This document shows, piece by piece, positions 12,465 to 29,596 of a stretch of 48,628 bases of DNA. The first letter of the stretch is position 1. Each line of letters starts with the position of its first letter. Source of the DNA: Thermoplasmata archaeon (GTDB lineage Archaea; Thermoplasmatota; Thermoplasmata; Lutacidiplasmatales; UBA184). The stretch covers positions 1 through 48,628 of the forward strand of contig JAKACD010000008.1 of assembly GCA_021821785.1 (NCBI GenBank), read 5' to 3'. Under the pieces are notes generated by a model. The model made no database searches and was not told the DNA's origin. It saw nothing but the letters and a program-made list of their open reading frames with translations. A program made the position numbers and the translations under genes.

Positions 12465-15269
12465 TCACTCCTCGGGGCGCTCCTCCACCGCGGCCGCCCG
12501 CGCGGCAACGGCGCGATCGAGCATCTCGGCGTCGACCGTCACGCGGGGTTCGTAGGGCGGCGCTGGCGCGAGCGCGTACTCCTCCCGGCCGTCCGGCCCC
12601 GGGGCGGCGACGAGCGTCCCGTCCGCCACCAGCGCCGCGAGCCATTCGGCCAGCTCCGCGGGCGGGCTCGGCGCCTCCCACGCCTGCGCGATCGCCGCCC
12701 GGTCCGCGACCTGCAGCCGGCGCACCACCTCGAGGGTCTCGGCCCGACCTTCCGCGAGACGACGCGCCGCCTCCTCCTCGGTCGGTGGAAGGGGGACCCG
12801 CTCGCGCCGACGGGGGCGGGTCCCGAGGGCCGCGGCCAACCCGAGCATGACGGCGACGGAGAGGGCGAGGACGGCGAGCGGCGGGCCGGCTACCGGCGCG
12901 ACCGACACGACCGTGGGGGCCAGCGAGACCGGTCCGACGAGCACCGCGCCCGCGCCGTCCAGGATCTCGACGGTGCCGACCGTCACTCCGCGGAGCGAGT
13001 AGTTCACCCAGGCGCCGGTCGCGTTCGGACCGTCCCAGGTGATCGGGACGATGCTGGCGCTCGCGCTGCCGCCCCCGTTGTACTGAAAGTACAGGTAGGC
13101 GCCGGGCACCGGGTCGCCGAACCGATCGGAGACGTGCCAGTACGTCCGGTTCACCCCGGTCCCCGCGAGCGCGATCACCGGGTCATACAGGCGCAGGTGG
13201 GTGAGGTCCGGGGACACGGAGACTTCGACGCTCGTGCCGCCGCCCGGGGCCGCCGACCCTTCGAGCCGGACGGTGAGGTCGCCCGCGACGGCCGGCGTGA
13301 GGTTGACGAACAGCACCCCCGCGCTCCAGGCCGAGGGTGGGATCGCGAACGCCCCGATCGGCGTGGGGGAGAGCGCCCCGAGCCCGGAGAGGTTGAGCCA
13401 GGACGGGGCGCTCGAGCCGTTTCCCTGCTGGATGACGAGGTCGACGGGGGCCGCGAAGGTCGGCACGACCTCCCCGACCGCATCGAGGGCCCGCCAGGCA
13501 AGCGGGACCGGGTGGCCGACCGTCTCCGGCGCGGGGGACGGCCCCACCACCGTCTCGAGCGCGGCCGCCGGGCCCGGGTCGACCGCGAGCGAGAGGTTCT
13601 CGCTCCGGGCCGAGCCGAGCGCATCCCGCACCGTCACCGAGATCTCGACCGTCCCTGCGACCGGCGGCGCGAACGGCACCGTGATCCGCCCGTCCCCGGT
13701 CACGCTCCCGGAGGCGATGGGACCATTCCGGTCGGTGGCGTTCCACCAAACCTCGGCCGGGAGCGCCCCGCCGGCGACGAGCACCGAGAGGTTCGTCGGC
13801 ACGCCGGCGGCGAGCGGGAGCGCGGCGGCGCTGAGGCCGCTCACGGAGAGCGGGTCGACGACCCGGACCGCCGCCGCGACGGAGCGGTTCATGCCGGCGG
13901 CGTCGATCACCCACGCGTCCCCGGAGAAGTTGCCCGTGGCCGCGTAGACCGGGTCGAACGTCCACGAAGGTCCCGCGGTGGCCGAGCAGACCATTGGCGC
14001 GGCCCCGGGCGCGAAGCAGGCGCGCGCGTACGGCAGGACCCCGGAGCCGTTCGCCGCGGACAGGGTGAGCGGCAGCGCGGCGCCCACGTACCCGACCGGC
14101 TGGGCCGGATCGAGCTGGAGCGCGGGCGGCGGGTCGATCGTGAGGATCGGGGAGGTCCAGACGGCCGAACTGAACCCGTTCGAGACGTTGACGGAGAGCA
14201 CCGCGGTTCCGGCCGACGGGTAGGAGATGCTCGTGCTGCACCGCACCGCGACCTCCGTCGGGCTGGTCGAACTGGACGCGCAGGAAAGGTTCGTATCGGG
14301 AATTCCCGGGGCCAGCCGCAGGCGCGCCGAGTAGGCGTACCCTGACGGACCGACGGCGGAGACCTCGACCGCGACCGGCTCCTGGGCGTCGAAGGTCGTC
14401 CGCGCGATCGACCCCGCGGTGAGGGTGGTCGCGATCGAGGCGAGGTCGAGCGTGACGGTCGGCGCGCGGAAGGAGTTCGTCCCCGCGGTCGCCGAGGCCG
14501 AGACGTTGAGGGTCGCCGTGGCGTCCGGCCCGGAGGCGACCACCGCCGCCGAGCCGTTCGACGGCGTGAGGTCGAAGCCGTTGCCGTTGAGCCCCCACAC
14601 GAAGGTGACCGAGAGCGGGCTCCGCGTTCCGTTCGCGGTCCACGGGGTCGCCACGAACGAAGTCGTGGCGCCGGGGGCGAGCCCCACGGACGGGCCGGAC
14701 GGCAGAACGGTCACCGACGCGAGGCCGGCGACCCAGGCGAGGGCGAAGGTCGACCCGTTCTCGACAGCGGAGTTGAGATAGCCGCTCGGCCGGGTGGTGG
14801 GCACGATCGTGAGCGGCCCGAACGGTGAGGCATAGTCGGTGCATTCGAGCCCACCCCCTGAGGCCGGAGCGCAGGACTCCGGAGGTGGGCTCGCCGAGCC
14901 GGAGAACGCGCCGGCCGCCCCCGTGGTGACGGTCTCGCTGACGGGCAGGCAGTTCTCGGAGATGAGGGTCCCGTTCGAGTCGTAGGTGACGGTCACCTGT
15001 TCGTCGTAACTCACCGTGAGGTTCACCCCCACCGCGGCCGACTCGGTGAGTGGACCGCCCTCGACGGAGAGGTTCCCGGAGAAGCTGGTCGAGAGATGGG
15101 ACGTCGTGCACGGTCCGTTCCCCGAGTAGAACGTTAGCGCCGTCGCCCTGCCGCTCGTCGCCGAAGCGGGACCGACCCCCGCTCCGCCGAGCGCCACAAG
15201 GATCGTCGCTACGAGGGCGACCGCCACAACCAACGGTCGATGCCTCGGGGTGCGGCGGCCGGCGGTCAC
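12465..15269 (-). CDS. Large secreted/surface protein with Ig-like repeats, one C-terminal TM helix and a cytoplasmic tail
   Basis: N-terminal hydrophobic signal (PLVVAVALVATILVALGG), Ser/Thr/Gly-rich beta-type repeats with N-x-S/T sequons, TM LAVLALSVAVMLGLAAALG followed by RPRRRER and a charged tail. Confidence 0.7.
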   Translation of the reverse strand: MTAGRRTPRHRPLVVAVALVATILVALGGAGVGPASATSGRATALTFYSGNGPCTTSHLSTSFSGNLSVEGGPLTESAAVGVNLTVSYDEQVTVTYDSNGTLISENCLPVSETVTTGAAGAFSGSASPPPESCAPASGGGLECTDYASPFGPLTIVPTTRPSGYLNSAVENGSTFALAWVAGLASVTVLPSGPSVGLAPGATTSFVATPWTANGTRSPLSVTFVWGLNGNGFDLTPSNGSAAVVASGPDATATLNVSASATAGTNSFRAPTVTLDLASIATTLTAGSIARTTFDAQEPVAVEVSAVGPSGYAYSARLRLAPGIPDTNLSCASSSTSPTEVAVRCSTSISYPSAGTAVLSVNVSNGFSSAVWTSPILTIDPPPALQLDPAQPVGYVGAALPLTLSAANGSGVLPYARACFAPGAAPMVCSATAGPSWTFDPVYAATGNFSGDAWVIDAAGMNRSVAAAVRVVDPLSVSGLSAAALPLAAGVPTNLSVLVAGGALPAEVWWNATDRNGPIASGSVTGDGRITVPFAPPVAGTVEISVTVRDALGSARSENLSLAVDPGPAAALETVVGPSPAPETVGHPVPLAWRALDAVGEVVPTFAAPVDLVIQQGNGSSAPSWLNLSGLGALSPTPIGAFAIPPSAWSAGVLFVNLTPAVAGDLTVRLEGSAAPGGGTSVEVSVSPDLTHLRLYDPVIALAGTGVNRTYWHVSDRFGDPVPGAYLYFQYNGGGSASASIVPITWDGPNATGAWVNYSLRGVTVGTVEILDGAGAVLVGPVSLAPTVVSVAPVAGPPLAVLALSVAVMLGLAAALGTRPRRRERVPLPPTEEEAARRLAEGRAETLEVVRRLQVADRAAIAQAWEAPSPPAELAEWLAALVADGTLVAAPGPDGREEYALAPAPPYEPRVTVDAEMLDRAVAARAAAVEERPEE

Positions 15270-15351
15270 CCGGACTCCGTTCGCCCACCCTCCGTGGGCC
15301 GGCCCTTCACCGATCTCTCCCTCCTTAACCGTGTCGGAACGTCGCGGCGGG

Positions 15352-15360
15352 CCGGAAGCT
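15352..15360. repeat. Left target-site duplication of the IS element
   Basis: CCGGAAGCT, identical to 16693-16701. Confidence 0.75.
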
Positions 15361-16692
15361 GAGTGGTGTGCGGAGATTGGTAGGTGACGCCCCTGCCGAG
15401 AACGGTCATGGGTAGGTTCTCCCGCTCAAATATCTGTGCACGGCGATCTCGTAGGTCGCCCGACGGGTCTTGCGGCTCAGCAGCATCACGAGTTGGTTGA
15501 GCAGGCCCCCGCCCCACCGCGCCCACTTGCGCTTGCACCGGTCAGCGATCATCCCCATCACCCGCTCGACCCCGTTCGAGGTGGCCGGCATTGAGATCCC
15601 TTGTGCGACCACCTCGGCGAAGACGACCAGGGCCTTCGCCTCGCGGCGAATCGTGCGGGCCGAGCGAGGGCAAGCCCCTCGGTCGAGTCGTTGGGCAAGA
15701 GCCTCGAGCTCGATGAGGGTGCTCCGCACCCGGTCCGTGATCGCCCACCACTCGCTTCGGAGTCGGTGGTGCTCCACCGAGTTCCTCAGATGGGCCAGGA
15801 GCCCTCGCATCGGCGCGAGGATCGCCTCGCGGTCGAGGAGGCCCACTCCCTCCTCCTGCAGGAGTCCTCCCAGCAGTCGGACGAAGTGGACGTGACAGAG
15901 CTGGTGGAACTCCGTGGGGTAGGCCATCAGCCCGAAATCGTCGTCGGTCACCAGCTGGTGGACGGCCTGTCCTTCGAGGACGGAAGCGGGAGGGCCTCCG
16001 ACGTTCACCTCGGCGAGGTGGACGTGATGCTCGGGGTCCACCGTGATCGCTACATGGACCGGGTCCTGGGCACCTCTCCTCCGCTGACTCTTGACGAAGG
16101 TCGAGTCGGCCTCGTGGACCGAGCGCTCGACAGGGGGCGGGGTGGACGGCGCGCGGAGCGCGCGCCTCACCTCGACGGCGATCTCCTGCAGGAAGTCCCA
16201 GATGGTGCGGCGAGGCACCCGCAGTCCGAGGGTTCGCTCGAGGGCTTCGGAGGCATCTCCGAAGGAGGTGCGGGTGGCCATCTCCGCGGCGGCGAGACGG
16301 AGTTCCGGGGTGTAGCGGCGCTTCCCCAGCCCGAGGGCGGTGAGGAGCGGGGAGAAGGTGCGCCGTCCCAGACGGTCGCGGACCCGTCGGGGACGGAGGT
16401 CGACGGGCCCCAGGCGGGTGATGAACCGTCGGGGTCGCGAACCGTGGCCGACGAACCTCGGTCGACCGTCGGGGAGGACGATCCGATGGAGTTCCTCGAG
16501 GAGGAACGCCTCCATCTCTTCGAAGACGGCGCGGAGGGCGTCAATCCCTCGGTGGTAGGCTCGGTTCAGCAGTTGAGCAAGCTCTATCGGCGGGAGTTCC
16601 TGTATCTTCGTGGGCCTCTCCTCCTGTTGGGTTCTTGGTGGTTCCCACCAGGGGAGAGGTTCCCCCCGTCATCTACCGATCTTCACACACTA
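15361..16692 (-). mobile_element. Complete IS element (MULE-type DDE transposase; ISLre2/ISH6-like)
   Basis: Left TGGTGTGCGGAGATTGGTAGGTGAC vs reverse complement of right end TAGTGTGTGAAGATCGGTAGATGAC; flanked by 9 bp CCGGAAGCT direct repeats; internal transposase ORF. Exact left end uncertain by about 3 bp. Confidence 0.85.
15406..16515 (-). CDS. DDE transposase
   Basis: RYTPELRLAAAEMATRTSFGDASEALERTLGLRVPRRTIWDFLQEI; EADSTFVKSQRR (D), LVTDDDFGL...HQLCHVHFVRLL (D...CxxH), TSNGVERVMGMIADRCKRKW (E). Confidence 0.85.
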   Translation of the reverse strand: MEAFLLEELHRIVLPDGRPRFVGHGSRPRRFITRLGPVDLRPRRVRDRLGRRTFSPLLTALGLGKRRYTPELRLAAAEMATRTSFGDASEALERTLGLRVPRRTIWDFLQEIAVEVRRALRAPSTPPPVERSVHEADSTFVKSQRRRGAQDPVHVAITVDPEHHVHLAEVNVGGPPASVLEGQAVHQLVTDDDFGLMAYPTEFHQLCHVHFVRLLGGLLQEEGVGLLDREAILAPMRGLLAHLRNSVEHHRLRSEWWAITDRVRSTLIELEALAQRLDRGACPRSARTIRREAKALVVFAEVVAQGISMPATSNGVERVMGMIADRCKRKWARWGGGLLNQLVMLLSRKTRRATYEIAVHRYLSGRTYP

Positions 16693-16756: not shown

Positions 16757-17668
16757 GTGGCTCCTCCCACGCGGACCGCGATCGTCCCGCCCCGTCTCGC
16801 TTCGCTCCCGCGGGAATGGGAGCAGCTCGAGTACTCTTCGCGCTCGCTCGTCGTCGTCGGGGACGGTCGGCGCCTCTTGCGGGCGTGGGGCGCGCCGGAA
16901 GCGCCGTGGGTCCTGGCCGTCGAGCCGGTGGGACACCGCTGGCAGGTCGAAGCGCCCGGCGGCCGGGTCGAGGCGCGCGCCGTCCGAGCCGCGGCGCGCG
17001 CCCTCTTCAGTTTCGCGCATCCGATCGAGGAGTTCTACCGGCAGGTGCGGTCGGAGCCCGTGCTGCGCGGGACGGAGCGACGGTTCCGCGGGCTGCGCCT
17101 TCCGCGCGATGCGAACCTGTACGAGGCGCTCTTCCATTCGATCGTCGGGCAGCAGCTCTCCGTCGCGGCGGCGAACGCCGTGAAGCGCCGGCTGATCGAG
17201 CGGACCCGATCGGTCCTCGTCCACGGCCGGGTCGAGGTGCCGCATGTCCCCCGGCCCTCGGCCTTACGTGCGCTCGGTCCGGAAGGTCTGCGCGCGGTCG
17301 GCGTCAGCGGCGCGAAGGCGCGCGCCCTCGGCGCGCTGGCGGCCACCGCCGACTTCCCGCCCGAGCGAATCGCCGAATGGCGTCGGGGCGAGCTCGCGGC
17401 GGCGATCGAGGCGCTCACCGCTCTTCCCGGCGTGGGCCGATGGACCGCCGAGAACGCGCTCCTGCGGGGGGTCGGCCGACCGGACGTCTTCGTGGGCGGA
17501 GATCTCGGCATCCGCGTGGCGCTGGACGCCTACGGGGTCGTCCCCCGCGGTGCTCCCGAGGCGACGGTCCGCGCCTGGGCCGACCGTCACTATACGGGGT
17601 GGGGAAGTTACGCTACGCTCTACCTGTGGCGGAAGTGGGTCGAGGACCGACCCGGAAAGACCGGCTAA
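16757..17668 (+). CDS. DNA-3-methyladenine glycosylase II (AlkA-like, HhH-GPD)
   Basis: LYEALFHSIVGQQLSVAAANAVKRRL, LTALPGVGRWTAENALLRGVGRPDVFVGGDLGIRVAL. Confidence 0.88.
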   Translation: MAPPTRTAIVPPRLASLPREWEQLEYSSRSLVVVGDGRRLLRAWGAPEAPWVLAVEPVGHRWQVEAPGGRVEARAVRAAARALFSFAHPIEEFYRQVRSEPVLRGTERRFRGLRLPRDANLYEALFHSIVGQQLSVAAANAVKRRLIERTRSVLVHGRVEVPHVPRPSALRALGPEGLRAVGVSGAKARALGALAATADFPPERIAEWRRGELAAAIEALTALPGVGRWTAENALLRGVGRPDVFVGGDLGIRVALDAYGVVPRGAPEATVRAWADRHYTGWGSYATLYLWRKWVEDRPGKTG

Positions 17669-18186
17669 CCCGGTCGGCCGCCGCCGAGCGGGAACGTGGC
17701 CCGCGTCTGGTGGATCGCCCCCCGCGGCGTGAGCGTGCTCTCCTTCAACACCACCTCCGTGACCCTTACCTCCCGGGTCGGCGGCGCGGGCTCCGCCCCC
17801 GACAGGAGGGCCTCCGCCCGACGCCGCTCGCCCGGCGAACGGACGCGGAAAAGCGTCAGGTGGGGCACGAACCGCCCCCGCTCTCTCGGGAAGCCGAGGG
17901 GAACGAGCGCGGTCGCGATCCGCGCCGCCACGTCGGCGACCTCGGTGGCCCCGCGGGTCGCCCCAACCCAGACGACCCGGGGGTGGTCCCGGGAGGGGAA
18001 GGCCCCCACACCCTCGAGGCGGAGATCGAACGGCGGGCGGTCCCGTACCGCTTCGGCGACCGCCGCCGAGATCGCGGGGAGCTGGTCGGGTCGGACCTTT
18101 CCGAGGAACTTCACGGTGAGGTGGGCGGGGGCGCTCGCCCCGGCGGGGCCGGCGGTCGTGAGCTCGATCGCGAGGAAGAGCCGCAC
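17665..18186 (-). CDS. thpR: RNA 2',3'-cyclic phosphodiesterase (2H/LigT family)
   Basis: VRLFLAIEL..., two 2H motifs: HLTVKFLGKV and HLTLFRV. GTG start at 18186. Confidence 0.88.
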   Translation of the reverse strand: MRLFLAIELTTAGPAGASAPAHLTVKFLGKVRPDQLPAISAAVAEAVRDRPPFDLRLEGVGAFPSRDHPRVVWVGATRGATEVADVAARIATALVPLGFPRERGRFVPHLTLFRVRSPGERRRAEALLSGAEPAPPTREVRVTEVVLKESTLTPRGAIHQTRATFPLGGGRPG

Positions 18187-18212
18187 GAGCCCTCGAGAGG
18201 CGCGCCGCGTTC

Positions 18213-20789
18213 TTACGCGTTGGTCCCGGTACGCGCGACGGCGGGGCCCGGAGGCTCCGTGATCGTCCAGACCTGCGCCTGGTCGATCCCGACCTTGAGG
18301 GAGCGGAGGACGGCCCGCACGCGCCGGGCGCGCCGCGGATCTCCGACGACGAAGAGGGCGAACGCGTGGTGGGCCCGGGCCTTCTCCCATCCTCGTCGGA
18401 TCCGCTCGGCCCGCAGCGCCCCCGAGACCTCCGCCTCGATGTGCACGTCCCGTCCGCCGAAGTAGCGCCAGGCCCAGCTCCCCCGAACCCGCTCGATCTC
18501 CTCGGCCAGTTCGCACGGCGCGCAGGCCCCGGGCTCGGCGAGCTGGCGGTAGACCGCGTCGGGGAGCGTGGTGTCGTAGCGACCCTGGCGGAGAATCTCG
18601 ATCCGATGGCCGCGTCGGGCAAAGATGCGGAAGGTCCGAACGAGGAGCCAGCGGTGCTCGGCGCTCTCCCGCGTCGCGCCGGTGGGCGCCGTGAGGCCGA
18701 GCCGTCGTTCGCCGGCGGGGCTCAGGGAGCAACCGCGCGGCCCGAGGAGGAGCCAGCCCTCTCGGAGCGCGCGGAGCCAGCCGAGCCGCAACGTCTCGAT
18801 CTCGGGCGGGGAACCGCCGGGGAGCGCCCGGGCCGCGGCGACCGCCCGGTCGGCGCTCGCGAGGGGGCGACTCTCCTCCTCGGCGGCCAGGGTCGCCAGG
18901 AGAAGCCGCTCCGTCGCGGGGTCGACCCCGATCGAGGCTTCGCTCGTCTCGGCCGCGGGCGGGTACTCCCCGCGAGTGCGCCGGACCGCCTCGCGCCAGC
19001 CGTCCGAGGCCCGGGGGCCGTCGCCGTCGGTCGGATAGACGCCGCGGACCTGGCCGGAGGCAACCTCGAGGCGGAGGCCGTGACCCGGCGGAAGCGCGGA
19101 GAGGTCTCGCTCCGCTGCCTCGGGCGCGAGGCCAACCCATTCTCCGATGGAGCGGGCCACGCGCCGGGGAACGCCGAACGATACCACATCGGTGAGCGAG
19201 CCTCCGACCGCGCTCTTGAGCTCGGGCGCGAGCCGGTCGGGGAACTGCGTCGCGACGAGCGCCCGGAGGCCGAACTTTCGGCTCTCGGTGAGGATCTCGG
19301 CGACGAGCCGCGGCGAGAAGGCGTGCACCTCATCCAGCACCAGCCACACCGGCCGGGACTCGGGCCGCTCGGTGCGGCGCGCCGCGAGGCCGAGGTACGT
19401 GCGCGCGAGGAGGAGCGTTCCCGCGAACGCCGCCGACTCCGGGCCGAGGAGGGCGAAGGGGATCCGCACGAGCACCGGACGGCCATGCTCGAGCAGGTCC
19501 TCGACGGGGATCCCACCGTCCGAGGGGGCCAGGAGCTCCGCGAGCGGCGGCACGAGCGCGACCTTCGAGAGGCGGGTGGCCGCCGACCAGAGGAAGTCGG
19601 GCTGGCGCCGGAGGACCGGCTCGAGCTCCGCGAGAAAGCGGGCCAGGTCGGCGCGCCGTGTCGCGAGCCGCGCCGCCTCTCGCCGGTCGCGGTCGGTGAG
19701 GAGCGCGTAGAGGTCGACCACCGAGCCCGACGCGTCGAGCACGAGCCGCACGAACGAGTCGAAGATCCGCTCGAGGCGGAACCCCCAGTACACGTCGCTG
19801 CCATCGGGGGTCAGCCGTTTCAGCGCGGCCACGAGATGCGCCGCGGCCCGGTCGCGGGCGCCGGGCGTGCTCGCGAGCGCCGCAATCCCGGGGACGGGCG
19901 GGTCGCTCGCATCGATCGCAATGAGCCGATCCCGCTCCTCGGCCGTGAGCTGACCCACGATCGCCGGGGCGAGGTCCCCGTGAAGGTCGATCACGAGCAG
20001 GGCCCCGCCGCGGCGGATCTGCCGGGCCGCGCTCCGGGCGAGGTAGGTCGTCTTCCCCGCGCCCGACGCTCCGAAGACGACGCGGTGACCCTCCTCGAGC
20101 CGGTCCGCCGCCTCCGGACGCCCCGCGGCCACCTCCGCGGTGCGTTCCAGCCGGTCCGGCGCCACCTCCACCCATGCCTCCTCGGGGAGACGGCGCCGCC
20201 GGCCGTGCCGCCAGTCTGCGCGCGCACCCAGCCGGGCCGGGGCCGCCGTGGTAGCGACGCCCGTCGAGACCGTCCACGCGGCCGCCACCGCGGTGGCGAC
20301 GGCCGGCTCGCTCCGCGCGAGCGCCTCCGGCGACGGGGCGCTCAACTGGAACCGACGGGCCACCGAGATCACGCCCGACGGCTCTCGCCACCAGAAGGTC
20401 TGGAAGGCGAGCCACCCGCGCGCTCCGGCAAGGCGGGTGAGGTCCGCGGGCTCCCGCGCGAGGTCCGGGGCGGGAGCGCCGAGAGGGGAACGCGCGGCAC
20501 GAACGAGGTCCCGCACGACGCTCACACTCTCCCGGGGAGGGTCGAGGGCCGGCGGCCCCGCCCGACGTTCGAGCGCGAGCATCCCGACCGCGGGGACCGC
20601 CTCCACGGTCGCGACGAGCGAGGCGGGGCGTACGGTCACCCACGGGATGGGCTCGGGCGACGGGGACTCGAAGAGCACGCCGGACGGCGCCGGGGTCGCG
20701 AGAACGGCGTGGGCCAGGGCGCGGTACCATCGACGGCGGAGCGACTCGGGCCCGCGCGCGCGCACCGCGAGCAGCTCCCGGTCGCTCAT
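18213..20789 (-). CDS. HerA/VirB4-TraG-like DNA-translocase ATPase with extra C-terminal domain
   Basis: Walker A FGASGAGKTTYLARSAARQI, Walker B VWLVLDEVHAF, LRALVATQFPDRLAPELK; C-terminal LPDAVYRQL...DVHIEAEVSG resembling a PD-(D/E)XK/Replic_Relax-type segment. ATG 20789. Confidence 0.75.
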   Translation of the reverse strand: MSDRELLAVRARGPESLRRRWYRALAHAVLATPAPSGVLFESPSPEPIPWVTVRPASLVATVEAVPAVGMLALERRAGPPALDPPRESVSVVRDLVRAARSPLGAPAPDLAREPADLTRLAGARGWLAFQTFWWREPSGVISVARRFQLSAPSPEALARSEPAVATAVAAAWTVSTGVATTAAPARLGARADWRHGRRRRLPEEAWVEVAPDRLERTAEVAAGRPEAADRLEEGHRVVFGASGAGKTTYLARSAARQIRRGGALLVIDLHGDLAPAIVGQLTAEERDRLIAIDASDPPVPGIAALASTPGARDRAAAHLVAALKRLTPDGSDVYWGFRLERIFDSFVRLVLDASGSVVDLYALLTDRDRREAARLATRRADLARFLAELEPVLRRQPDFLWSAATRLSKVALVPPLAELLAPSDGGIPVEDLLEHGRPVLVRIPFALLGPESAAFAGTLLLARTYLGLAARRTERPESRPVWLVLDEVHAFSPRLVAEILTESRKFGLRALVATQFPDRLAPELKSAVGGSLTDVVSFGVPRRVARSIGEWVGLAPEAAERDLSALPPGHGLRLEVASGQVRGVYPTDGDGPRASDGWREAVRRTRGEYPPAAETSEASIGVDPATERLLLATLAAEEESRPLASADRAVAAARALPGGSPPEIETLRLGWLRALREGWLLLGPRGCSLSPAGERRLGLTAPTGATRESAEHRWLLVRTFRIFARRGHRIEILRQGRYDTTLPDAVYRQLAEPGACAPCELAEEIERVRGSWAWRYFGGRDVHIEAEVSGALRAERIRRGWEKARAHHAFALFVVGDPRRARRVRAVLRSLKVGIDQAQVWTITEPPGPAVARTGTNA

Positions 20790-21268
20790 GCGCGGTCCTC
20801 CGCGCGCGCCCGGGCGAGCAGCCGGCCGATCGCGTCGGCGAGCCCGGCCAGGCGGTTCGCCTGGGCGAAGGCGAGGAGCGCCGCCTCGGGGAGGATCCGC
20901 TCCCGGGGCCGGTCGTGCTCCCAGAGGCGTACGGTCCACCAGCGGGCGCCGTCCGGACCCGAGTAGAGGTGGGCGATCGGGCGGTACGGGCCGGCGAGAG
21001 GAAGGCGCACGGCGCCGACCCATCGGACCGACGGGTTCGTTCGTTCGGGAACGGGTTGGGAGGGAAGCGGTTCGTTCGCTCGGCGTTCAGCCGGCACGGT
21101 CTCCACGGTAGGTTCACAGATCCTCCCCTCCTCCGGCGGGCCGACGGAGGCGAGGTCGCTCGAGGTCGCGGCGCGCGCGGAGCGCAACGGCTCCGTGACC
21201 GTCGTCCGAGAGCCCGCTCCCGCAGCCGGACCGCCGCAGGACTCGGACGAGCGGGGTTCCGGCGACAT
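20786..21268 (-). CDS. Uncharacterised protein translationally coupled to the HerA-like ATPase
   Basis: Stop overlaps the ATPase start (ATGA); C-terminal VRWVGAVRLPLAGPYRPIAHLYSGPDGARWWTVRLWEHDRPRERILPEAALLAFAQANRLAGLADAIGRLLARARAE. Start uncertain. Confidence 0.6.
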   Translation of the reverse strand: MSPEPRSSESCGGPAAGAGSRTTVTEPLRSARAATSSDLASVGPPEEGRICEPTVETVPAERRANEPLPSQPVPERTNPSVRWVGAVRLPLAGPYRPIAHLYSGPDGARWWTVRLWEHDRPRERILPEAALLAFAQANRLAGLADAIGRLLARARAEDRA

Positions 21269-21688
21269 CGCCGGAGAAGCGGTCCGGTGCGGGCGCCCGC
21301 CGCTCCTCGTGCGGGACCCTCGGTCGGTCCGACCGGGCGTCCGCTACAAGGGGGCGGCCTCCGAGGGTCCCTGTCCGCTCGGGGCGACGCCGCGCGCTAG
21401 ACGGTTAGCTCCCCTGTCCTCGGCACGACCGATCGGCGGAGAGGTCCTCCGCGGAGGTCGCGCGGGAGGGGGGCGGGGTCGATCGGCCGACCGAGCTCAG
21501 CGTTCCCGGGGTCCGATACCGCATCGAGGATCGACGCGAGACCGGGGCGCGGGATAGGGAAGGTTCGGGGCCGTCCATGGGGGATTTCGCCCCGTCCAGG
21601 GCGGGCGAGGGGTAGATGGCTATCGGCGTCGGGGAACGATGAACGATGGCCCCGATCGGCAGGCCCGAGCGGTGTAAGGAGGGGCCCC

Positions 21689-22660
21689 ATGCTCGGGTGG
21701 GACGGATCGGGCGCGGAAGGGAGGAGCCGTCCCTCGACGTCGTCATCGTCACCCGCGACCGTCCCCTCCGCCTCGCCGCGCTGCTCGGCGATCTGTCCGA
21801 GGGTGCGTACCGACCGCGCACGATCACGCTCGTGGACGACTCCCCGCGGCCGTCCGACTGGTCGAAGAGTTTCCCAACGCTCCCGCTCCGGACGCTCCGC
21901 CCGTCGCGGCGCACGTTCATCTCGGCCGCGAAGAACGCGGGGCGCGGGGCGGGACCGCCCCGTTCGTAGCGCTTGTCGACGGCGACAAGCGACTTCCGCC
22001 CGACGTGCTCCCCACGCTCGTCCGAGACCTCGAGACCCACCCCGACTGGGGCGCGGTCATGCCGGGGGTCGTCTATCACCAACGATCCGAGCTCGTCTGG
22101 GTGCACGCGACTCCGTTCCGGCCGGACCGCTGGGAGTTCGACCTGCTCGGACGGAACCGTCCGCGCCAGGCGCCGCTCGAACACCGGCACCTCCCGACCG
22201 ACGCGCTGCCGAACCTGTCGGTCGTCCGTCGATCCGGGATGGAGGCCGTAGGGGGATTCGATGAGGGATTTCCCGTGAACAGTTCGGCCGACCTCTGCCA
22301 GCGCATGAAGTCGGCCGGCCGGGTGGTCCAGGCCGATACGGGCGTGCTCACCCGCCACTACGTGGAGCCGCCCGGGACCCCGGGCTACTGGGCGGAGCAT
22401 GCCGTCGTAGACCCGTACCGCGCGCGACACGAGGTCGCCGACTGGTTCCGCTTCCCCCGGCGCTGGGGCCCGGCCGGCCCGGGATTCGCCGCTCGGGCGA
22501 GCGCGCGGGCGCTCCGCTTCCTCCTGCCCACGATCGTCGCCGCGGCGATACGCCCGGTCCCCCACCGCTTCCGGCTGATGGTCAGCCTCGGCCAAGGATG
22601 CAGCGACGGGCTCTTCGGCCCGATGCCGGCGTCGCCGGCTCCATGGGCGGCTTCGAACGA
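21689..22660 (+). pseudogene. Family 2 glycosyltransferase, frameshifted
   Basis: Frame 1: LDVVIVTRDRPLRLAALLGDLSEGAYRPRTITLVDDSPRPSDWSK...SAAKNAGRGAG; continues in frame 0: GGTAPFVALVDGDKRLPPDVLPTLVRDLETHPDWGAVMPGVVYH. 3' boundary approximate. Confidence 0.7.
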
Positions 22661-22703
22661 TGGTGGGGGCCGGCCGCCCGAGTCACACGGCGAAAAAGGG
22701 GTA

Positions 22704-22769
22704 GGAAAGGTCCTTCGCACGCCTGGGACACGGTGCTGTCCCCTTGCGACGATATGGAAGGACCTTTCC
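22704..22769. repeat. Long nested inverted repeat/hairpin
   Basis: GGAAAGGTCCTT (22704-22715) perfectly complementary to AAGGACCTTTCC (22758-22769); inner GGGACA/TGTCCC and TCGCA/TGCGA pairs. Confidence 0.8.
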
Positions 22770-22861
22770 CGGGGTGGTTGCAGGTTCTCGATCCTCGCCG
22801 GCCTATTTGAGGGCCGGACGGGGAGGGCCCGAAACGCCCCCTCGAGCGGTGTTCCGCCGGC

Positions 22862-23347
22862 TTACCGGGCCCGGTGCGTCTCGGGCTCGGCGAGAACGAT
22901 GCGCGGGAGCTCCCCCTCGATCGCCGGAGGCCGACGGGCGACGGCGCTCGCCCGGGCGGCGTGACCCTGCCGGGGTAGGAGCCACCGCTCGCCCCAGGCG
23001 CGGAGCTCCCGCGCGGCGGGGGCGAGGCCGAGTCCCATCTCGGTGAGGGAGTAGACGACCGAGAACGGGCGCGTGCTGACGACCGTCCGCTGGACGACGC
23101 CTTGGCCCTCGAGGAACTTCAGGGTCGCGCTCAGGGTCTTCGCGTTGAGCCGAGCGTTCGACTTCAGGATCTCGCTGAACCGCTGCGGCCCCTCGAGAAG
23201 GCGGTGCACGATCGCGAGGCGCCACTCCGTGCCGATGACTCCGACGGCGGCCAGGACCGGGCAGAGTCCCCGGCCCTCGTTCGTGTCGCAGGTATCCGCG
23301 CCCCCGGCCGGACCGGCGGCCGGTCGGCGGGCTCGCTCCGTCTCCAT
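22862..23347 (-). CDS. HxlR-family transcriptional regulator
   Basis: CPVLAAVGVIGTEWRLAIVHRLLEGPQRFSEILKSNARLNAKTLSATLKFLEGQGVVQRTVVSTRPFSVVYSLTEMG. Confidence 0.85.
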   Translation of the reverse strand: METERARRPAAGPAGGADTCDTNEGRGLCPVLAAVGVIGTEWRLAIVHRLLEGPQRFSEILKSNARLNAKTLSATLKFLEGQGVVQRTVVSTRPFSVVYSLTEMGLGLAPAARELRAWGERWLLPRQGHAARASAVARRPPAIEGELPRIVLAEPETHRAR

Positions 23348-28519: not shown

Positions 28520-29596
28520 ATGCGGGCGAGCGGAGGCTTCCACGGGCGACGGATCCAGAAGACCGGGGGCTCCACCTACATCATCTCGCTCCCGAAGAAC
28601 TGGGTCATGGCCCGGGGTCTCCGCCCCGGCGACACGCTCCTCTTCACGCCGCGGGCCGACGGCTCGCTCACGGTCTTCGCCGAATCGGCCGGGCCGCCGA
28701 TCGCCGAGCGGCGCGCCGTCAGCGTGTCGAACGAGATGGAGAAGGAGCATCTCTTCCGTCGGCTGATCGCGGAGTACATCGCGGGCTACCCGCTCCTCGA
28801 GATCCGCACGCCGGGCCGGATGAGCGCCCGGACCCGCGAGGTGATCCGTTCCTTCGCCCAGCGTATGATCGGCCCCGAGATCCTCGAGGAGACCGCGGAG
28901 TCGGTGATCCTCCAGGACGTCGTCGGGGCGAACCCGCTGCCGATCCCCTCGATCCTCCGGCGCGAGCATCAGATGGTGCGCGCGATGCAGGCCGACGCGA
29001 TGGCGGCATTCCGAAGCCGGGACGCGCAGATCGCGCGGGACGTTGTCGAGCGCGACTGGGAGGTCGACCGGCTCCATTGGTTCCTCGAGAAGCAGGTGAC
29101 GAGCGCGCTCCGCGACGCGCGGATCCTCGCGACGCTCGATCTCACGCTCCCGGAGTGCTCGACGTACCTCCTCGCCTCCCGGATCCTCGAGCGGATCGCC
29201 GACCACGCGGTGCGCATCGCGGAGACGGTAGCGATGATCGGCACCGAGCGGTCCCCCGAGCGGCTCGCAGGGGCGCTCGAACGCATGGCGGACCAGGCCG
29301 GGAGCGCGCTCGCCGATGCCCTCGACTGCCTCGACAGCCGCGACATCCCGAAGGCGAACCGCGTGATCGACTCGGCCGAGCAGATCACCCGCGAGCGCGA
29401 CCAGCTGCTCCACGAGATCGGCTCGAAGCGCGGCCGCCTCGCCATCGGGCTCGCCTACGTCCTCGAGAGCCTCGAGCGGAGCGCCTTCTACGCGAGCGAC
29501 CTCGCCGAGATCGCGATCAACCGGGCCGTCGAGTCCCCTTCGCCCGAGGCGGCCCCCGCCGGAACCCCGGTGAAGGCGCTTGTGCCCGGGGTATAG
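28520..29596 (+). CDS. AbrB/SpoVT domain-PhoU phosphate uptake regulator
   Basis: RRIQKTGGSTYIISLPKNWVMARGLRPGDTLLF (AbrB-like), then PhoU-type helices with LASRILERIADHAVRIAETV. Confidence 0.87.
   Translation: MRASGGFHGRRIQKTGGSTYIISLPKNWVMARGLRPGDTLLFTPRADGSLTVFAESAGPPIAERRAVSVSNEMEKEHLFRRLIAEYIAGYPLLEIRTPGRMSARTREVIRSFAQRMIGPEILEETAESVILQDVVGANPLPIPSILRREHQMVRAMQADAMAAFRSRDAQIARDVVERDWEVDRLHWFLEKQVTSALRDARILATLDLTLPECSTYLLASRILERIADHAVRIAETVAMIGTERSPERLAGALERMADQAGSALADALDCLDSRDIPKANRVIDSAEQITRERDQLLHEIGSKRGRLAIGLAYVLESLERSAFYASDLAEIAINRAVESPSPEAAPAGTPVKALVPGV

Follow-up and report, generated by a model that had tools for sequence, protein, structure and literature searches.

What does a cell do with a gene that joins a HerA-like ATPase to a nuclease-like C-terminus and overlaps the gene for a small protein? 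The question is raised by a stretch of 48,628 nucleotides of archaeal DNA, hereafter the window, for which a sequence-only reading had proposed that such a pair could form a DNA-processing, mobilisation or defence module. Our results point elsewhere. We see an even chance that the gene, chromosomal and inherited vertically, encodes a DNA translocase-nuclease that does in one chain what HerA and NurA do in two: a motor ring would pump double-stranded DNA and a fused domain would cut it. The grounds for this reading, and for the alternatives to it, lie in the spread of the gene, in its neighbours and in the domains of its product.

Results

The two open reading frames that had been proposed, one for the ATPase and one for a small protein that ends inside the ATPase start, were both recovered (Table 1). 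They meet at an ATGA junction with a 4-nt overlap. Homologues of the two proteins were found in about 30 genomes, and both frames can be taken as real genes because these homologues occur at 42-60% identity in many genomes. An overlapping junction of the GTGA/ATGA type is also present in six relatives (L003, L037, L038, L045, L053 and L054), and the coupling of the ATPase to the small protein is thus conserved. In genome G029 (L053:8217-10785, otherwise complete) the ortholog is split in two frames near residue 572, by a frameshift or a sequencing error. Conservation of the small protein is limited to the last 80 to 90 or so of its 160 residues; hence, judging from the alignment, translation probably begins at one of two in-frame GTG codons and not at the ATG at 21268. 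Searches with this protein of Pfam and the PDB gave no family and no structure, and a match to VicH at 0.03 was rejected as being at chance level.

Table 1. Features of the ATPase locus and their positions in the window
Feature	Position	Strand	Remarks
Small partner ORF	20786..21268	-	160 aa; conserved part begins only near residue 70; GTG at residue 55 or 58 as likely start
ATPase-nuclease fusion protein (nuclease activity predicted)	18213..20789	-	858 aa; ORF from ATG at 20789 to stop ending at 18213; orthologs 42-60% identity in most genomes of genus
N-terminal domain	20106..20789	-	residues 1-228; fold like VirB4 N-terminal part in model
FtsK/HerA/TrwB-type motor	19020..20117	-	residues 225-590; Walker A 240-247, Walker B around 483-487; Pfam, profile and structural matches
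Winged-helix linker	18696..18926	-	residues 622-698; C-terminal model residues 1-77 vs winged-helix proteins, Z 8-10
PD-(D/E)XK-like domain	18246..18695	-	residues 699-848; H712, D739, P743-D744, E785-x-E787, K803
ThpR/LigT RNA 2',3'-cyclic phosphodiesterase	17665..18195	-	directly downstream of ATPase; TIGR02258 3.9e-31, LigT_PEase; adjacent in most relatives
ISH6-like transposase	15406-16515		IS element 1.7 kb from ATPase gene
Broken glycosyltransferase	21646-21969 and 22005-22964		readable in two frames only, i.e., frameshifted

A scan of named genomes detected six relatives of the ATPase, all of them in Thermoplasmata MAGs. One of these, AcS13-54, is listed as Candidatus Lutacidiplasmatales (PMC9287336), and the host group is most likely the Lutacidiplasmatales, archaea of soil and acid water. 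The ATPase was present in most of the genus in a search of 61 genomes; among sampled genomes that were at least 90% complete, 21 of the 24 from the same genus had an ortholog, in single copy. Genomes that differ more in the ATPase also tend to differ more in the neighbouring SHMT (pairwise distances, Mantel r 0.47, p 0.001), a correlation that is within the range of other neighbours. Viral contigs yielded 45 pattern matches to the family alignment, none of them a relative; phages gave no match to the ATPase, and plasmids gave three, at 33-35% and covering the motor only. These comparisons indicate that the ATPase is chromosomal, near-core and vertically inherited. It is not essential in all genomes, as some are without the whole block of genes, which in genome G070 is cleanly absent between DAO and SHMT. 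Seven genomes of the same genus (G173, G033, G210, G030, G264, G016 and G031) are without close orthologs of both the ATPase and SHMT, and ThpR and HxlR are also missing from them where tested. This pattern suggests that they form a subclade lacking the block or have assembly gaps in common.

The constant neighbours are, in order, a DAO oxidoreductase, a DUF4147 protein, a 254-aa unknown protein, an HxlR regulator, the small protein, the ATPase, ThpR, AlkA, a large surface protein and SHMT, and the conserved neighbours are metabolic, regulatory or repair genes. Despite changed flanks, the small protein, the ATPase and ThpR remain together in other genera (L093 and L096-L098); ThpR is located elsewhere in genus g24 and a few others. 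A LigT-type gene is missing from 8 of the 56 genomes of the family, and the ATPase ortholog is missing from all 8. In genome G311, ThpR is present and no ATPase was found. Since the genes of the block tend to be absent as one, this co-absence is a weak sign of a functional link, and we rejected it as proof of function: in most such genomes the whole block is missing.

Two further features had been reported beside the pair. The decayed glycosyltransferase is borne out, its frame being broken by a frameshift; it sits between HxlR and the small protein, where the relatives compared have no full-length counterpart. An IS element is indeed present, at a somewhat greater distance from the ATPase gene than the 1.5 kb or so first given, and its ISH6-like transposase separates AlkA from the surface protein here and in no other locus compared. 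Both are local features. The surface protein itself (window positions 12465-15269, predicted, 934 aa) has a likely membrane segment near its C-terminus and a possible cytoplasmic helix-turn-helix tail; it has no Pfam match and is conserved beside the locus. Also in the window, at 28520-29596, is a gene for a PhoU-domain protein with an N-terminal MazE/AbrB-like domain, which is highly conserved in relatives.

The motor of the ATPase has a RecA-like P-loop, with Walker A (GASGAGKT) starting at residue 240, Walker B (LVLDEVHAF) at 483 and a VATQFP segment at 512, and it has the superfamily fold, which together place it in the FtsK-HerA superfamily. Its match to TrwB_AAD_bind in Pfam, a family that groups with type IV coupling proteins, is over the cut-off for that family (7.1e-9), and the solved structures found by the motor profile include HerA and TrwB. 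CedD, CedB and TraD were among the weak NCBIfam matches of the ATPase. As the mean pLDDT of the full-length model is 68.6, only broad fold matches were used from it; these were to TrwB (Z 15.6), HerA (Z 14.0) and VirB4 (Z 13.8). The earlier assignment to a HerA/VirB4/TraG type is upheld by these Pfam and structural matches. The N-terminal domain had no match by sequence among solved structures. In the model, residues 1-222 matched chain 8rtd_h of the R388 secretion system (Z 11.2, rmsd 3.6, 191 residues); HerA proper carries an N-terminal HAS-barrel, and the domain here is, at medium model confidence, closest to the VirB4 region of R388. A 206-aa gene upstream of some Thermoplasmata relatives was considered as a split-off N-terminal domain and dropped, the hhalign probability being 0.1%.

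For the C-terminus, residues 622-848 were modelled separately and with good confidence (pLDDT 85). Its first 77 residues fold as a winged helix (Z 8-10). The remainder matched PaqCI, a restriction enzyme (Z 8.5, 120 residues, rmsd 4.3), and Can2, a nuclease of CRISPR systems (Z 8.1, 113 residues, rmsd 3.5), both with moderate scores. A Foldseek search of the PDB gave no match below an E value of 0.001, and phage restriction-endonuclease models were among the top matches in a viral library (probability up to 0.98, E 0.02). A restriction-endonuclease-like fold is hence graded as likely and not as proven. By sequence, Pfam and solved structures yielded nothing credible for this domain; a match to CoiA_nuc at 0.0085, in 3 of 25 members, is a hint only.

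Mean column identity is highest in the C-terminus (70%, as against 64% in the motor and 36% in the N-terminus), and the columns that are invariant across 27 relatives include E708, H712, R737, D739, P743, D744, E785, E787 and K803, several of which fall in the stretches LPDAVY (residue 742) and IEAEVSG (residue 784). Across 25 proteins that belong to other families of the class, the same motor precedes a domain that keeps H, D, E and E without exception and K almost without exception. When the C-terminal alignment A4 was compared by hhalign with A7 (relatives in other families, with the same motor), the probability was 94% and the E value 1.4e-7. As hhalign joins both sets and the signature is common to them, the alignments point to an early origin of the domain within the class. 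On the nuclease, the earlier reading is supported, since the signature residues occur throughout the class and in the most conserved part of the protein. The cutting activity of the domain is a prediction: D744 and E785-x-E787 are invariant, with K803 downstream, but a glutamate occupies the usual place of the (D/E)xK lysine, and metal-dependent cleavage is not assured with this atypical ExE. TraG-like ATPase paralogs also occur in the family (loci L138-L148); those at L147 and L148 have a related PD...ExE C-terminus and most of the others do not.

NurA (PF09376) was detected in none of the 56 genomes of the family and in 48 of the 151 genomes of the class. All 21 genomes tested also had a canonical gene of the HerA type (about 490 aa), distinct from that of the fusion, and the fusion protein is therefore not the sole HerA-like motor. 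Inspection alone of two loci recognised no NurA, Mre11 or Rad50 beside the separate HerA gene. The HerA-type gene at about 14600-16100 of G000:C36 (L117:6625-8082) has none of these three as a recognised neighbour.

Discussion

The nearest known counterpart of this protein may be a Thermoplasmatales protein (PMC10354927) with the same domain order, a HerA/TrwB-type motor and then a PD-(D/E)xK-like domain; the two presumably share a family. That protein has about 640 aa whereas the one described here has about 860; the N-terminal domain, winged-helix linker, small coupled partner and ThpR neighbour are added here, and we regard our protein as a divergent variant. The likeness to HerA-NurA lies in a chromosomal pairing of a ring-type DNA motor with a nuclease. 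However, the nuclease-like domain is fused here and is of another fold, that of NurA being RNase H-like (PMC9905601), and the family has a separate HerA-type gene and no NurA.

Of the alternatives, a role in anti-virus defence survives best, although we judge it unlikely. The motor would scan or pump invading DNA and the nuclease would destroy it, by analogy with HerA-effector systems. Indeed, the motor resembles several solved HerA defence complexes and is matched by the PADLOC model for Mad8 of MADS (E 1e-13), but nothing similar lies outside the motor, to which the matches with defence models are confined, and no other MADS gene is among the ten neighbours scanned. PADLOC found no defence system beside the ATPase among these neighbours. 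One of them, a coiled-coil KaiC-type protein, gave weak PADLOC matches. The absence of the block from some genomes would agree with such a role, as would the naming of the Thermoplasmatales relative in a list of lost genes alongside defence-category genes (PMC10354927). A gene that is near-core, in single copy and vertically inherited, with mostly metabolic neighbours, is less readily explained in this way. The sequence-only reading had itself named two observations that would count against it, namely core homologues with constant neighbours and a C-terminus without nuclease similarity; the first is what we observe and the second is not. With constant chromosomal neighbours, a vertical signal, no viral or phage homologue and no adjacent defence gene, its proposal of a mobilisation or defence module is not sustained.

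A second alternative is that the C-terminus is a catalytically dead, PD-(D/E)XK-derived domain for DNA binding or oligomerisation and that the protein is solely a chromosome translocase. The ExE found where (D/E)xK is expected and the moderate fold scores are consistent with this. Invariance of H, D, E and E, and near-invariance of K, over the class at low overall identity is what an active site would show, and we consider a dead domain rather improbable. We attach the same low probability to a VirB4/VirD4-like motor for DNA transfer or mobilisation, by import or conjugation, with the C-terminus as its processing nuclease: TrwB/VirD4 and VirB4 are among the best structural matches for the motor and N-terminal domain, and CedD, CedB and TraD among weaker ones, but among the conserved neighbours we recognised neither a pilin nor a channel nor any further component of type IV secretion, the highest 19-residue hydropathy (1.6) is at the usual cut-off for a membrane anchor and so gives no clear one, the nuclease-like domain is extra and the plasmid matches cover the motor only. 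Both the defence and the transfer explanations are weakened by the near-core, vertical and mostly metabolic context; both keep a small probability, since the block is absent from some genomes.

A chromosomal translocase-nuclease is the reading that we prefer. Its motor would probably assemble into a hexameric ring and use ATP to pump double-stranded DNA, while the C-terminal winged helix would grip the DNA and the PD-(D/E)XK-like domain would cut it as it is threaded. Motor and nuclease would thus act in one chain, in contrast to the two chains of HerA-NurA. It would be likely to process DNA ends in repair, or to remove aberrant ones. A probable role for the small protein is that of a subunit by which the ring is capped or loaded; ThpR, the next gene in the same direction, may trim RNA or merely share regulation. 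More doubtful still than a dead domain or a transfer motor is an extended version, in which a one-chain translocase-nuclease with a VirB4-like N-terminal domain would carry out end resection in an order that is without detectable NurA, and the operon with ThpR would link this to the metabolism of RNA 2',3'-cyclic phosphates or 2'-5' linkages.

In summary, our reading, if it is true, corrects the tempting view that genes of this kind make up defence or mobile modules. A little-noticed chromosomal translocase-nuclease would then be present throughout an archaeal class, and an order without a recognisable NurA would use the fused version. Such a protein would also provide a simple single-chain system in which to study how ring motors feed nucleases.
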